Below are positions 57,060 through 62,548 of a DNA stretch of 64,000 nucleotides, piece after piece (the first letter of the stretch is position 1; each line of letters opens with the position of its first letter). A program made the translations under genes and the position numbers. The notes below the pieces were generated by a model that was given only the letters and a program-made list of their open reading frames with translations, was not told the origin of the DNA and searched no databases. Origin of the DNA: Salinivibrio kushneri (GTDB lineage Bacteria; Pseudomonadota; Gammaproteobacteria; Enterobacterales; Vibrionaceae); NCBI RefSeq assembly GCF_005280275.1, contig NZ_CP040021.1, positions 2,691,001 to 2,755,000 of the forward strand. Reading direction: 5' to 3'.

Positions 57060-59240
57060 TTAAAGCGCTTCCAGTTTAGCATACTGAGTCACCAACCACT
57101 TAATCCCTTCCCCATTAAAGGCAACTTGCACGCGGCTTTGTCCGCCACTGCCTTCAAAGTTGATGATGGTGCCTTCACCAAACTTAGGGTGTTGAACCCG
57201 CTGACCCAAACTAAATCCGGTTTGGTTAAAGTTCTCTTGAGTCTGCGTTTTGGAAAAACGACCACCGCTTGCAGCAGGGCGTGAGACATTGGCACGCATG
57301 CGCACTTCTTCCAAGCAGGCCTCGGGCAGCTCACGAATAAAGCGCGAGATCTTATGGAACATGTCTTTGCCGTACACACGGCGCATTTCTGCGTAGGTGA
57401 GATAGAGTTTTTCCATCGCTCGCGTCATACCGACATAGCAAAGGCGACGCTCTTCTTCTAAGCGACCCGCTTCTTCGGCTGACATCTGACTGGGGAACAT
57501 GCCCTCTTCTACCCCGACCATAAAGACTAAGGGGAACTCGAGGCCTTTGGCACTGTGCAAGGTCATCAATTGGACCGCATCATCAAACTCGTCCGCTTGG
57601 CCTTCACCGGCCTCAAGGGCGGCGTGGGCCAAGAACGCCGACAGCGGTGTCATACCTTCCGCTTCCGCCTCTTCAGGCGGCGTAAATTGGCGCGTGGCCG
57701 TCACCAACTCTTCCAAGTTATCGACACGTGCTTGCGCTTTTTCGCCTTTTTCTTGCTCGTACATGGCGCGCAAGCCGGAGTGACGGATCACGGCATCGGT
57801 CTGTTGATACAGCGCCATGTCACGGGTGTCATCTTCTAGCGCATTGACCAACTCGATAAACCGGCCCAACGCATTGGCCGCGCGTCCTGCCAACGCTTTT
57901 TCTGCCAAAATTTGCTCGGCAGTGTGCCACAAGGTTTGGCCGCGATCGCGCGCCGCGCCACGAAGCGTCTCAAGGGTACGATCACCAATCCCTCGAGTGG
58001 GCGTGTTCACTACCCGCTCAAACGCCGCATCGTCATTGCGATTCGCCATCAAACGTAAATACGCCAGCGCATCTTTGATTTCTTGGCGTTCGAAAAAGCG
58101 CATGCCGCCGTAGATACGATAAGGCAGGCCGGCTTGAATTAAGGCTTCTTCCAGCACCCGAGATTGGGCGTTGTTGCGGTATAAAATGGCGCTATCAGTG
58201 AGTGCGCCGCCTTCGTCTTGCCAGGTTTTGATTTTCCCGACCACAAACCGCGCTTCATCCAGTTCATTAAAACCGGCATACACAGAGATGGGCTCACCCT
58301 CTTTGCCCTCGGTCCACAAGCTTTTGCCCATCCGGTCGGCATTGTTTTCAATCAGGGTGTTGGCCGCTTGCAAAATCGTACTGGTTGAGCGGTAGTTTTG
58401 CTCCAAACGAATGGTCTGCGGGGTAGTGAAATCGTCCAGAAAACGCTGAATATTCTCGACTTTCGCGCCACGCCAGCCGTAAATAGATTGGTCGTCGTCC
58501 CCCACAATCATTACATGCGCCTGTTGGCCAGCCATCATACGCAGCCACGCATATTGGATGTTGTTGGTATCTTGAAACTCATCCACCAAAATGTGCTGGA
58601 AACGTGCTTGATAGTGTTCACGGATCACTGCTTTATCGCGCAATAACTCTAAGGTTCGCAGCAAGATCTCGGCAAAATCCACCAAGCCGGCGCGATCACA
58701 GGCTTCTTGATACGCCTGATAAATCCGCAGCCAAGTGCTTTCAACCGGATCATGGCGGGTATCAATGTGCTTGGGACGCAAGCCTTCGTCTTTTTTGCCA
58801 TTGATATACCAACTCGCTTGCTTGGCAGGCCAGTGTTTTTCATCCAAGTTTTGCGCTTTAATTAACCGGCGTAGCAAGCGCTGCTGATCGTCTGAATCAA
58901 GAATTTGGAAGTCTTGTGGCAGGTTGGCGTCTAAATAGTGGGCACGGAGAATACGATGGCAAATACCGTGGAAGGTACCACACCACATGCCAGAGGCCGT
59001 GCCTTGCATCAATTGCTCAATACGGCCACGCATTTCGGCTGCAGCTTTGTTGGTGAAGGTCACCGCCATCACCGAGAACGGCGACGCCTCTTCCACCCGC
59101 ATCAGCCAAGCCATACGATGAACCAGCACACGGGTTTTACCACTACCGGCCCCGGCAAGCACTAAATGGTTACCAAGCGGCGCGGCCACGGCGTCACGCT
59201 GTTTGTCGTTGAGTCCGTCAAGAAGAGTTGATACGTCCAT
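57060..59240 (-). CDS. uvrD: DNA helicase II UvrD
   Basis: SF1A helicase of nucleotide-excision and mismatch repair. 726 aa from the ATG at 59240 (E. coli 720; opening MDVSTLLDGLNDKQRDAV). The longer ORF to 59327 adds 29 unsupported residues. Walker A AGAGSGKTR, DEFQDTN and YVGMTRAME motifs are present. The C-terminal Tudor-like domain ends with WLVTQYAKLEAL. Confidence 0.97.
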   Translation of the reverse strand: MDVSTLLDGLNDKQRDAVAAPLGNHLVLAGAGSGKTRVLVHRMAWLMRVEEASPFSVMAVTFTNKAAAEMRGRIEQLMQGTASGMWCGTFHGICHRILRAHYLDANLPQDFQILDSDDQQRLLRRLIKAQNLDEKHWPAKQASWYINGKKDEGLRPKHIDTRHDPVESTWLRIYQAYQEACDRAGLVDFAEILLRTLELLRDKAVIREHYQARFQHILVDEFQDTNNIQYAWLRMMAGQQAHVMIVGDDDQSIYGWRGAKVENIQRFLDDFTTPQTIRLEQNYRSTSTILQAANTLIENNADRMGKSLWTEGKEGEPISVYAGFNELDEARFVVGKIKTWQDEGGALTDSAILYRNNAQSRVLEEALIQAGLPYRIYGGMRFFERQEIKDALAYLRLMANRNDDAAFERVVNTPTRGIGDRTLETLRGAARDRGQTLWHTAEQILAEKALAGRAANALGRFIELVNALEDDTRDMALYQQTDAVIRHSGLRAMYEQEKGEKAQARVDNLEELVTATRQFTPPEEAEAEGMTPLSAFLAHAALEAGEGQADEFDDAVQLMTLHSAKGLEFPLVFMVGVEEGMFPSQMSAEEAGRLEEERRLCYVGMTRAMEKLYLTYAEMRRVYGKDMFHKISRFIRELPEACLEEVRMRANVSRPAASGGRFSKTQTQENFNQTGFSLGQRVQHPKFGEGTIINFEGSGGQSRVQVAFNGEGIKWLVTQYAKLEAL

Positions 59241-59480
59241 CGCCACCTGCCATTTTACTGGGTATTTATACACTGGTTGGCGATTATACCAGCTCAGCGC
59301 TAAATTGCGCGCCCGATCCCGACGCAACTTTTTTAAGTATAAAATTCAGCATTTTATCCATCACCGCGCAAAAAAAACACTTAAATGGTGAAAGATTGTG
59401 CAGTGTTTTCCTATCTTGATTTATAGGCCCACCACGAATCAGAGGGCTGATAACACCAACACGGAACAAGAAGAGGATAC

Positions 59481-59744
59481 ATGATGAAAAACACTAACCT
59501 AGCTGTTGCCGCTGCTGTCACAGGATTGTTGGCGGTGGGTACCACCACACTCACTAGCGCACCGGCCCATGCGGCAGAAAAAGAAAAATGCTACGGCGTC
59601 GTTAAAGCAGGGGAAAACGACTGCGCCACCAGCACCAGCTCCTGTGCGGGCACGTCAACGAAAGATGGCCAAAAAGACGCTTTTGTCATGGTGCCTGAAG
59701 GCTTATGCGACCGCTTAGTCGGCGGCAGTACCTCGTCATCCTGA
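59481..59744 (+). CDS. bufA1: Bufferin-type copper-binding peptide precursor (DUF2282)
   Basis: An 87-aa secreted peptide; the second ATG at 59484 is also possible. AAGAGG precedes the ATG. The signal peptide ends at about residue 31-33 ([10 protein letters not shown]). The mature part has exactly four Cys (37, 48, 55, 76) in the family pattern [18 protein letters not shown] and GLCDRL. In characterised bufferins the enzyme encoded next door converts Cys residues to thiooxazoles that bind copper. Family assignment is strong; the modification is inferred. Confidence 0.88.
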
Positions 59745-59753
59745 TATGGCCGC

Positions 59754-59772
59754 GCCCGGGCTTGCCCCGGGC
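59754..59772 (+). terminator. Hairpin between bufA1 and bufB
   Basis: GCCCGGG/CCCGGGC with a 5-nt loop, followed by TTTGTC. A partial terminator or stabilising stem here would give more peptide than enzyme mRNA. Confidence 0.5.
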
Positions 59773-59799
59773 TTTGTCACTCGACCACAAGGAGCGACC

Positions 59800-60639
59800 A
59801 TGGATGAAGCAACCATTTTGACTGGCGTGGGACTCAGACAACCCCATCTCACCTACTTCGACCACTATCGCCCAAAGCTTGGCTGGTTAGAAATCCACAG
59901 TGAAAACTATTTCCGCCCTCACCGTCCGGCTTTTTCGACCTTGATGCGATTACGTGAGGATTACGCCATCAGCTGCCATGGCGTGGGATTATCGCTGGGG
60001 AGCGACGAGCCGCTTGATCGGGCCCATTTAGACAAGCTGTGTACACTGGTCAAACACGTCGAGCCACTGTTTGTGTCTGACCATTTAAGTTGGAGCCGGA
60101 TAGATGGGCAGCACTTTCACGATTTACTCCCCCTCCCATACACCGAGCAGGCATTGCGGGTGTTTTGCGCCAATGTGCAACAGGTTCAAGACGCGCTGCA
60201 GCGTCCTCTGCTGATTGAAAACCCATCGAGCTATTTAAGCTTTGCTCAGGGTGACTACCACGAATGGGAATTTCTCGCCGAAGTGCACGCTCGCACGGGC
60301 TGCGATTTACTGCTCGATTTAAATAATGTTCATGTCAGCGCGTTTAACCATCATTTTAGCGCCAGCACCTACCTTGACGCGATTCCTGCCCATGCGGTGA
60401 AAGAGATCCACCTGGCAGGGTTTACCGTCAAACACACACCCGCAGGAGAGATTTGGATAGACACCCATAACCAGCCAGTTAGCGAGGCGGTGTGGACGCT
60501 CTATCAACAGTGGATTGACCGCCACGGCCCACGCCACACCCTCATTGAATGGGATACCGACTTGCCCACGCCCGAGCGATTGTTAGCAGAAGCGGCCAAA
60601 GCCCACCACCGACTGGCTCGACACAAGGAGGCAGTATGA
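59800..60639 (+). CDS. bufB: Bufferin-modifying iron enzyme (DUF692)
   Basis: 279 aa from the ATG at 59800 (AAGGAG upstream). DUF692 TIM-barrel family, multinuclear iron enzymes that modify Cys. Metal-site segments ISCHGVGLSLGS, SDHLSW, IENPSSY, DLNNVHVSA, EIHLAGF and EWDTD are present in order. It follows bufA1 and should act on its cysteines, with BufC as partner. Confidence 0.93.
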   Translation: MDEATILTGVGLRQPHLTYFDHYRPKLGWLEIHSENYFRPHRPAFSTLMRLREDYAISCHGVGLSLGSDEPLDRAHLDKLCTLVKHVEPLFVSDHLSWSRIDGQHFHDLLPLPYTEQALRVFCANVQQVQDALQRPLLIENPSSYLSFAQGDYHEWEFLAEVHARTGCDLLLDLNNVHVSAFNHHFSASTYLDAIPAHAVKEIHLAGFTVKHTPAGEIWIDTHNQPVSEAVWTLYQQWIDRHGPRHTLIEWDTDLPTPERLLAEAAKAHHRLARHKEAV

Positions 60640-61376
60640 CGCTAGCCACCCTGCAACAGGCCTTTGCGGCCACATTGCGGGACGACCCTCAGCCGCTGCC
60701 GATAAAAGACGGTCGCCTTGCCGCTGACAAGCGAGTGCAGATTTATCGCAACCATTATGTGGTCACCCTGACCGACACCTTAAAATGCGTGTATCCCAAG
60801 ACCTGTGCGCTACTGGGTGAGGCGTGTTTTGACGCGGTAGCCCGTCATCATGCGATGGTGCATCCCCCGCAAACCGGGGTGGTGGAAGACTATGGCGCAC
60901 AGTTCGATGCGACCTTGCGCGCCCTACCCAATATTATCGAGCCCGTGCCGTGTTGCGCCGAGCTTGCCCGTTTTGAGTGGGCGCAAGTGGCGCTCACTCT
61001 CGCCCCAGCGTCTCCGCCGTTTGAAGGCAGCGCGCTCGCGTCGCTAAGCCCTGAGCAACAAGCGCAGGTTTGTTTACCGCTCAACCATCAAGCTCGTTTG
61101 TTTGAAAGTGACTACGCGGTCAGTGACCTGTGGCAAGCGATCGCCACCGAACAGTTCGAGGGCTTGGTGGTCGAGAAGCCGCAAGCTTTGTTGCTGGTTG
61201 CTCACCACGACAAGGTGCATTGGTACGCGCTCAATACCCATCATGTCAGCGTGCTAAAAACCTGCCCCCATACACCATTAGGCGCGCTGTCAGAGGCGCA
61301 ACTGGCGTGTGTGTCTGAGCTCGCGGCCATGAATGCATTTACCACCCCAACGACTGCCTATACTGCTAAGGAGTAA
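60636..61376 (+). CDS. bufC: Bufferin partner protein (DUF2063)
   Basis: 246 aa from the ATG at 60636, overlapping the bufB stop by 4 bp (ATGA); the ORF's earlier codons lie in bufB. The N-terminal DUF2063 helical domain (about 6-95, VQIYRNHYVVTLTDTL) is called DNA-binding in databases but acts as precursor-recognition partner in the bufferin and related systems. C-terminal domain less conserved. Confidence 0.9.
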   Translation: MTLATLQQAFAATLRDDPQPLPIKDGRLAADKRVQIYRNHYVVTLTDTLKCVYPKTCALLGEACFDAVARHHAMVHPPQTGVVEDYGAQFDATLRALPNIIEPVPCCAELARFEWAQVALTLAPASPPFEGSALASLSPEQQAQVCLPLNHQARLFESDYAVSDLWQAIATEQFEGLVVEKPQALLLVAHHDKVHWYALNTHHVSVLKTCPHTPLGALSEAQLACVSELAAMNAFTTPTTAYTAKE

Positions 61377-61379
61377 GCC

Positions 61380-61823
61380 ATGTGGCTAACCACAATCAAT
61401 CACACCTTCACTCGCGCGCTTACCCCACTGCAACCGCTACTTCTGCTGGTAGGCCGCGTCTACGTGGCGTGGATTTTTTTTCAGTCCGGGCTGATCAAAT
61501 ACCAAAATTGGGACAGCACCCTATACCTGTTCGAGTTTGAGTATCAGGTGCCTTTGCTGCCGTGGCAGCTGGCCGCGTATTTAGGGACCGCAGCGGAGCT
61601 GATTTTGCCGGTATTTGTTGCTTTGGGCCTGCTCGCGCGTCCCATGACCTTGGCGCTGTTTGTGTTCAACATTGTCGCGGTCGCCTCCTACCCACTGCTA
61701 TGGGAGCGTGGCTATGATGACCACATTATGTGGGGGGTGATCTTGTTGGTGGTCAGTGTGTGGGGGCCGGGTTGGCTTAACCTCGACAACTGGCTAGCCC
61801 GCAAACAAAGCGGCACCGATTAG
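61380..61823 (+). CDS. DoxX-family membrane protein
   Basis: A 147-aa protein with four membrane helices (about 20-36, 57-78, 85-103, 112-133). DoxX-family genes commonly end bufferin operons (bufD). Three bp after bufC. Ends 4 bp inside the convergent yigB. Role may be redox-linked, unproven. Confidence 0.9.
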   Translation: MWLTTINHTFTRALTPLQPLLLLVGRVYVAWIFFQSGLIKYQNWDSTLYLFEFEYQVPLLPWQLAAYLGTAAELILPVFVALGLLARPMTLALFVFNIVAVASYPLLWERGYDDHIMWGVILLVVSVWGPGWLNLDNWLARKQSGTD

Positions 61824-62548
61824 CGGTGCCACTGCTGAATAAGGGTATCGAGTTCAGATAGATCGTCGATCGCCACATCCGGCAAGGTGCGCCCTTTATG
61901 CATCATCGGGGACTGGCGCTCTGGGCGGATCCAACAGGCTTGCATGCCCGCTTGGCGCGCGCCAGCCACATCCGAGCTTAAGTGATCGCCCACATGTAAA
62001 ATACGCGCCGGGGCGAGGTCCAAGGCCTGCGCGGCCTTATCAAACATCTCGGGGCTCGGCTTGGCCTCTCCGTGTTCACCGGCACGGAAAATATGCTGGA
62101 AAAACGGCGTCAGGCCAATCGCATCGGTGTCGACGTTACCGTTAGTGATGGCCACCAATGGCAGTTTCTCGGACCAGGCTTTTAAGTAAGCCAAACTTTG
62201 CGCCGGCGGGGTAAAGTCACTGCGATATCCGCAAAAGAAGGTCGTCGCCGCTTGAGCTTGTGCGCGCGCCTTCTCCGCGGTTAAACCAACATGCTCTCCG
62301 GCTAAGGTCAGCTGGGCGACCCGCATCGCGGTGACGTCAAAGCGTTGGGCTGGATTCTCATCACGGGCTTGGCGGCGAAATCCCACAAGGGTGGCTTTAT
62401 CAAGCGCGGCGAGCGGGGGGCAGTGCTCACTCAAATAGTCGCTTAGCGCCGCCTCCGCGCGTGCGATCACCGGCCAGTTATCGTACAAGGTATCATCCAA
62501 GTCAAAACTCACCGCATCAAACGCGTTTAAGCGACGATAAAATTTCAT
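61820..62548 (-). CDS. yigB: HAD-family phosphatase YigB
   Basis: 242 aa from the ATG at 62548 (E. coli 238); upstream codons are in xerC. DxDxT motif VSFDLDDTLYDN, motif III Lys and GDHLSSDVAGA are present. E. coli YigB dephosphorylates FMN and 5-amino-6-ribitylamino uracil phosphate. One bp after the xerC stop. Confidence 0.94.
   Translation of the reverse strand: MKFYRRLNAFDAVSFDLDDTLYDNWPVIARAEAALSDYLSEHCPPLAALDKATLVGFRRQARDENPAQRFDVTAMRVAQLTLAGEHVGLTAEKARAQAQAATTFFCGYRSDFTPPAQSLAYLKAWSEKLPLVAITNGNVDTDAIGLTPFFQHIFRAGEHGEAKPSPEMFDKAAQALDLAPARILHVGDHLSSDVAGARQAGMQACWIRPERQSPMMHKGRTLPDVAIDDLSELDTLIQQWHR

Follow-up and report, generated by a model that had tools for sequence, protein, structure and literature searches.

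A set of four genes, bufA-bufB-bufC-doxX, lies on the plus strand at positions 59481-61823 of the 64,000-nucleotide stretch of Salinivibrio DNA analysed here (the window). The locus raises the questions of whether these genes form a complete bufferin operon, whether the operon was inserted between its flanking genes uvrD and yigB, and what switches it on. The sequence-only reading had described the set as complete and as a possible insertion. The features referred to below are as follows, in window coordinates.

57060-59252, minus strand: uvrD, divergent flank outside the operon (NF008743, 1310 bits)
59389-59416, plus strand: ECF-type promoter element TGAAAG-N16-CTATCT (putative), 64 nt 5' of bufA
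59481-59744, plus strand: bufA, predicted Buf1 bufferin precursor of 87 aa (PF10048)
59754-59772, plus strand: GC hairpin GCCCGGG-CTTGC-CCCGGGC in the bufA-bufB gap, 7-bp stem
59800-60639, plus strand: bufB, predicted MNIO (DUF692) bufferin maturase of 279 aa (NF050167)
60636-61376, plus strand: bufC, DUF2063 partner protein (PME type 1) of 246 aa (PF09836, 73.6 bits)
61380-61823, plus strand: doxX, DoxX-family membrane protein of 147 aa (PF07681, 62 bits)
61809-61833, no strand assigned: 10-bp hairpin from the hairpin scan, spanning the convergent ends of doxX and yigB
61820-62548, minus strand: yigB, convergent flank outside the operon (NF008018, 220 bits, slightly below the cut-off of 225)

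The families named in the sequence-only reading, a bufA1 precursor with four cysteines followed by DUF692, DUF2063 and DoxX proteins on the plus strand, were recovered by Pfam far above their cut-offs. The flanks were also correctly named, with uvrD divergent and yigB convergent. The description of the genes as all coupled holds for bufB and bufC, which overlap by 4 nt, and for bufC and doxX, which are 3 nt apart, but not for bufA and bufB, which are separated by a 55-nt gap with the GC hairpin inside. At their tail-to-tail ends, doxX and yigB have 4 nt in common, and the 10-bp hairpin spanning these ends is likely a terminator shared by both genes. An Rfam search returned no match. The order bufA-bufB-bufC, often with doxX, is the fixed order of Buf1 bufferin BGCs, and doxX is kept as the fourth gene across Vibrionaceae operons.

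BufB, the single relative of its kind in the whole genome, matches MbnB_TglH_ChrH in Pfam (344 bits) and scores 372 bits with NF050167, the NCBIfam model for bufferin maturases, above its cut-off of 310. The family matches at this locus are well outside what chance would give. The NCBIfam equivalogs of the Hvf type stay below their cut-offs at this locus (HvfB 214 of 360 bits, HvfC 58.5 of 142, HvfX 48.4 of 80). BufB can be aligned to 3BWW and TglH, and among 81 sequences 25 H, D, E or N positions are invariant or nearly so, including a DTH motif and an NN pair. The residues of a third iron site (site 3) have been studied in HvfB (PMC13419390), and in our reading the DTH and NN of BufB would correspond to that site. 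Searches of the PDB with the BufC sequence, single or as a profile, gave no match. The AF2 model of BufC (pLDDT 87.6) has two domains, and a fold search with this model retrieved TglI (E 1.8e-6), which is the partner chain in the TglHI complex, and 3DEE, a DUF2063 protein (E 1.3e-4). By its PF09836 match and its two-domain model, like those of TglI and 3DEE, BufC is a DUF2063 partner of the RRE type.

The precursor BufA is a DUF2282 protein (PF10048 in Pfam, 82.3 bits against a cut-off of 22.4). Its cysteines are residues 37, 48, 55 and 76, and the resulting 10-6-20 spacing is unchanged in all 79 named Vibrionaceae relatives. Judged by eye, the N-terminus is a putative Sec-type signal, with a Lys start, a hydrophobic core and an AHA/AE site in which AHA ends at residue 31. 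No NCBIfam equivalog was matched above its cut-off, and the only one to register was BufA2 (NF050166), with 28.7 of 60 bits. A BufA2 bufferin was ruled out on this score and on the cysteine count, which is four as against six or twelve. An oxazolin, or EGKCG captophorin, was likewise ruled out, as the precursor has no EGKCG repeat and the Hvf equivalog cut-offs are missed. The claim of a complete bufferin operon is backed by gene families, gene order, cysteine pattern, invariant residues of iron-ligand type and conservation. The set is very probably a complete and ordinary Buf1 bufferin operon, with modification and copper binding expected from its family. The gene cluster is of an already known kind, and its novelty seems to lie in its control.

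The 5' end of bufB needed correction. A start at 59746, which would give a longer frame, did not withstand comparison: a stop closes that frame in five of six sister genomes, and the longer frame is, judged from these sequences, an open-frame accident. The start is the ATG at 59800, with AAGGAG 5' of it, and in all sister Salinivibrio bufB begins at ATGGATGA, after AAGGAG. The stem of the GC hairpin in the gap is preserved in every one of the six sister operons of Salinivibrio and is absent from most other genera. A role as a partial terminator or RNA stabiliser is possible; that the hairpin sets the level of BufA above that of BufB is only a guess, because, at this composition, such a fold energy is nothing out of the ordinary (z-score -1.1). 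Two other genomes, G029 and G018, have strong hairpins of different sequence in the same gap.

To place the operon in its genomic setting, we determined where the maturase, DUF2282 and yigB genes lie in 61 genomes and mapped their neighbourhoods. The arrangement uvrD-bufABC-doxX is a standing one in about ten Vibrionaceae genera. The synteny of uvrD and yigB, which had been put forward as a check, held in part: uvrD and the buf genes stay together throughout these genera, but yigB is distant in two of them (g6 and g12, L087-L096), where about 40-50 kb separate the yigB-xerC-DUF484 block from uvrD-buf, so that the uvrD-yigB neighbourhood is broken. One sister Salinivibrio species (G006) lacks exactly the segment corresponding to window positions 59318-61820 and has about 112 unrelated bases instead. 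In this empty site (L081) there are short, imperfectly repeated GTAATATCG-like units that have no relation to the window and are perhaps a deletion scar. Within Salinivibrio, the derived state is, on this comparison, loss of the operon and not gain.

The suggestion that the operon may be an insertion was not upheld as far as a recent event is concerned. To our knowledge, most Enterobacterales have no bufferin operon at the uvrD/yigB site, and such an absence would fit a recent horizontal insertion between the two genes. The depletion of MNIO clusters in Enterobacterales (PMC13097082) points in the same direction. Against this, the uvrD-side location is identical in about ten Vibrionaceae genera, and the empty sister site represents a precise loss in a genus that otherwise carries the operon. 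Given this conservation across genera and the precise loss in G006, recent insertion fails as an explanation and is highly improbable. An old insertion that predates the Vibrionaceae ancestor is possible.

The region upstream of bufA carries the element TGAAAG-N16-CTATCT, which belongs to a motif, YGAAAK-N16-CTWTCY, present exactly in 58 of the 80 regions compared upstream of bufA (the window plus 79 named loci) as against about 0.05 in shuffles; the motif was defined partly on the same regions in which it was counted, and the shuffles and a spacer control are therefore the fair comparison. In that control, no other spacer between 10 and 23 gave a match, except 11 (five matches) and 12 and 17 (one each). 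The motif mostly lies 55-120 nt before the bufA start codon, and most of the 22 regions without an exact match are off by one or two bases. In this genome the strict motif occurs once, before bufA, and a looser form occurs seven times, close to the reversed-control count. When the strict motif was used in a regulon search, it returned bufA and a few scattered matches that were unshared between genomes, some of them within genes. A search of the bufA upstream region for a sigma-70-like site found none, with 1.8 expected by chance. As a fact of sequence the conserved element is solid; its form appears ECF-like, and so highly conserved a promoter before this operon looks new. Tandem bufA genes occur in some other operons, with two copies in several operons of L321-L324, L327, L332 and L334 (genus g8 and similar) and four in L312. 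In those tandem-bufA operons that have the promoter motif, it stands only before one copy, the first.

Every uvrD-linked operon is without a local sigma factor. Four ECF genes could be clearly recognised in the genome, namely RpoE, a FecI/FecR pair, one linked to a ChrR-type anti-sigma and one followed by DUF3379. NrsF had no match in this genome, while the Caulobacter control was detected. The DUF3379-linked ECF is absent from G006, which has no bufA, and from G011, which has bufA without the motif. All motif-bearing genomes scanned have this ECF and these two genomes lack both, a pattern that is suggestive only, as the genomes are kin. Among 296 Vibrionaceae genomes, 232 have DUF2282 and DUF3379, 22 have DUF3379 alone, 14 have DUF2282 alone and 28 have neither (Fisher p about 1e-15, kinship ignored), so that the DUF3379-linked ECF is present in 232 of 246 bufA genomes; these counts are not independent because the genomes are related, and relatedness inflates all of them.

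In 12 of the 14 genomes with bufA alone the precursor is a C-x7-C Buf1 precursor directly preceded by genes for an ECF and a zf-HC2 anti-sigma, and the motif is absent; the other two are G011 and G175, the latter a 74%-complete genome. No linked ECF and zf-HC2 pair was found at uvrD-linked loci, the lone match (L118) being a non-Vibrionaceae operon. All 12 x7 loci have the linked pair and none of the uvrD-linked loci does; a distinct sigma system, either linked or trans-encoded, therefore accompanies each bufferin type. The x7-type vibrio loci (L311-L320, L325, L328) have a tail like TGHGQLKAF and lie in genomes without DUF3379.

DUF3379 itself, for which a literature search found no paper using the name, has one likely membrane span at about residues 78-97, judged by eye. 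In its C-terminal part H113, H156, C157 and H166 are conserved at 91-100% in 58 sequences, and a sensor of Cu(I) in the periplasm would require such His and Cys residues. The ECF-DUF3379 pair (L226:1898-3134; G000:C1:2056397 onward), of which the ECF gene occupies G000:C1:2056397-2056942, is located between a thiolase gene and FadL-/MlaA-like genes. This trans-encoded pair, elsewhere in the genome, may switch on the operon. Transcription of bufA would then need the ECF, which would be held by DUF3379 acting as an anti-sigma with one span, and copper would be detected at a His/Cys site in the periplasmic part of DUF3379. The pair would take the place of the locally encoded pairs found elsewhere, sigF/NrsF in Caulobacter and an ECF with a zinc-finger anti-sigma in other vibrios. 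That DUF3379 is a copper-sensing anti-sigma is a tentative hypothesis, to which we give a somewhat less than even chance. A shade less probable is the full proposal that one-span DUF3379 senses copper through a periplasmic His3-Cys site, that its ECF is nearly single-target on the uvrD-linked bufferin operon across Vibrionaceae, and that bufferin control thus has a third mode.

A different sigma factor might instead read the bufA promoter (the ChrR-linked ECF, RpoE, or sigma-70 with an activator), in which case the DUF3379 pair would co-occur with bufA by shared ancestry; we regard this as having about an even chance. It fits the 22 genomes in which DUF3379 is found without bufA, and the fact that a genome holds essentially a single target of the strict motif. 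It also gains from the region 5' of the DUF3379-linked ECF gene. There, NGAAAK-N16-NGGTC is found in 37 of 58 sequences (a spacer of 12 gives 7, others tested give 0), but in most genera this site falls within a coding extension, FFRKK...SV, which Photobacterium-group genomes keep through synonymous CGT/CGC codons. Because of this overlap with a conserved coding extension, the motif is no proof of autoregulation, which it may or may not reflect. The -10 of Vibrionaceae bufA is also unlike the NGGTC box. Other observations count against the candidates named. The ChrR-type ECF follows bufA less closely, persisting in G006, G016, G017 and G024, all of which lack bufA, and the failure to find a sigma-70-like site counts against the third candidate. 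RpoE promoter sites read GGAACTT, which mismatches the bufA element. The joint absence of operon and regulator in G006, together with the regulator swap in x7 operons, favours the DUF3379 pair.

The family suggests how the product of the operon would act. In the cytoplasm, BufB and BufC would convert the central Cys 48 and Cys 55 into 5-thiooxazoles, and Cys 37 and Cys 76 would pair as a disulphide; in Buf1, the two central cysteines are modified and the outer pair forms a disulphide (PMC12452194). Sec would export the peptide, which would bind excess copper in the periplasm, and DoxX would have some supporting role. The same gene set is copper-induced in Cupriavidus and Legionella and is under sigF metal-stress control in Caulobacter (PMC10304878, PMC5413113, PMC3511200). 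It is conceivable that the thiooxazole peptide is made mainly against something other than copper (gold or a different soft metal, or sulphur or oxidative stress via DoxX), with copper secondary, given that gig operons are gold-induced, that sigF targets answer chromium and cadmium, and that MerC-bufferin fusions are known (PMC10304878, PMC3511200, PMC12452194). We consider this unlikely, as Caulobacter Buf1 was reported to bind copper and to protect growth (PMC12452194), and copper induces the homologous operons of Cupriavidus and Legionella.

The operon extends a known family and shows that a copper-buffering RiPP belongs to the near-core genes of marine Vibrionaceae and not to an accessory island. 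Should the regulatory reading prove true, it would give a function to DUF3379, and would provide an assayable case in which an ECF and its anti-sigma relay a periplasmic metal signal to one promoter.

Among known systems, the oxazolin/captophorin operons (HvfABC, FonABC) use an MNIO and a DUF2063 partner to install 5-thiooxazoles, and the Salinivibrio proteins are relatives of HvfB, HvfC and HvfX. Their precursors have EGKCG repeats, in contrast to the Salinivibrio precursor. The x7-type operons of other vibrios have a Buf1 precursor, MNIO and DUF2063 genes in common with Salinivibrio, but differ in their C-x7-C core, longer tail, directly 5' ECF and zf-HC2 genes, lack of the YGAAAK motif, and genomes without DUF3379. 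The gigPABT operon of Cupriavidus metallidurans and the GIG operon of Legionella comprise the same four gene families and are copper-inducible; gig lies next to an ECF gene of its own, the divergently oriented rpoQ, whereas the Salinivibrio operon has no linked ECF. The Buf1 BGC of Caulobacter vibrioides (CC3254-3257) is controlled by sigF/NrsF, a type of control that was rejected for Salinivibrio, where there is no linked sigma factor, NrsF is absent from the genome and the promoter boxes differ (YGAAAK/CTWTCY as against GTAACC/CGAA). The Caulobacter cluster nonetheless has the same bufA-bufB-bufC-doxX order and a four-Cys precursor with a signal peptide, the latter putative in Salinivibrio, and its sigF bufferin promoters, GTAACC-N16-CGAA (PMC3511200), share the N16 geometry of the Salinivibrio element.
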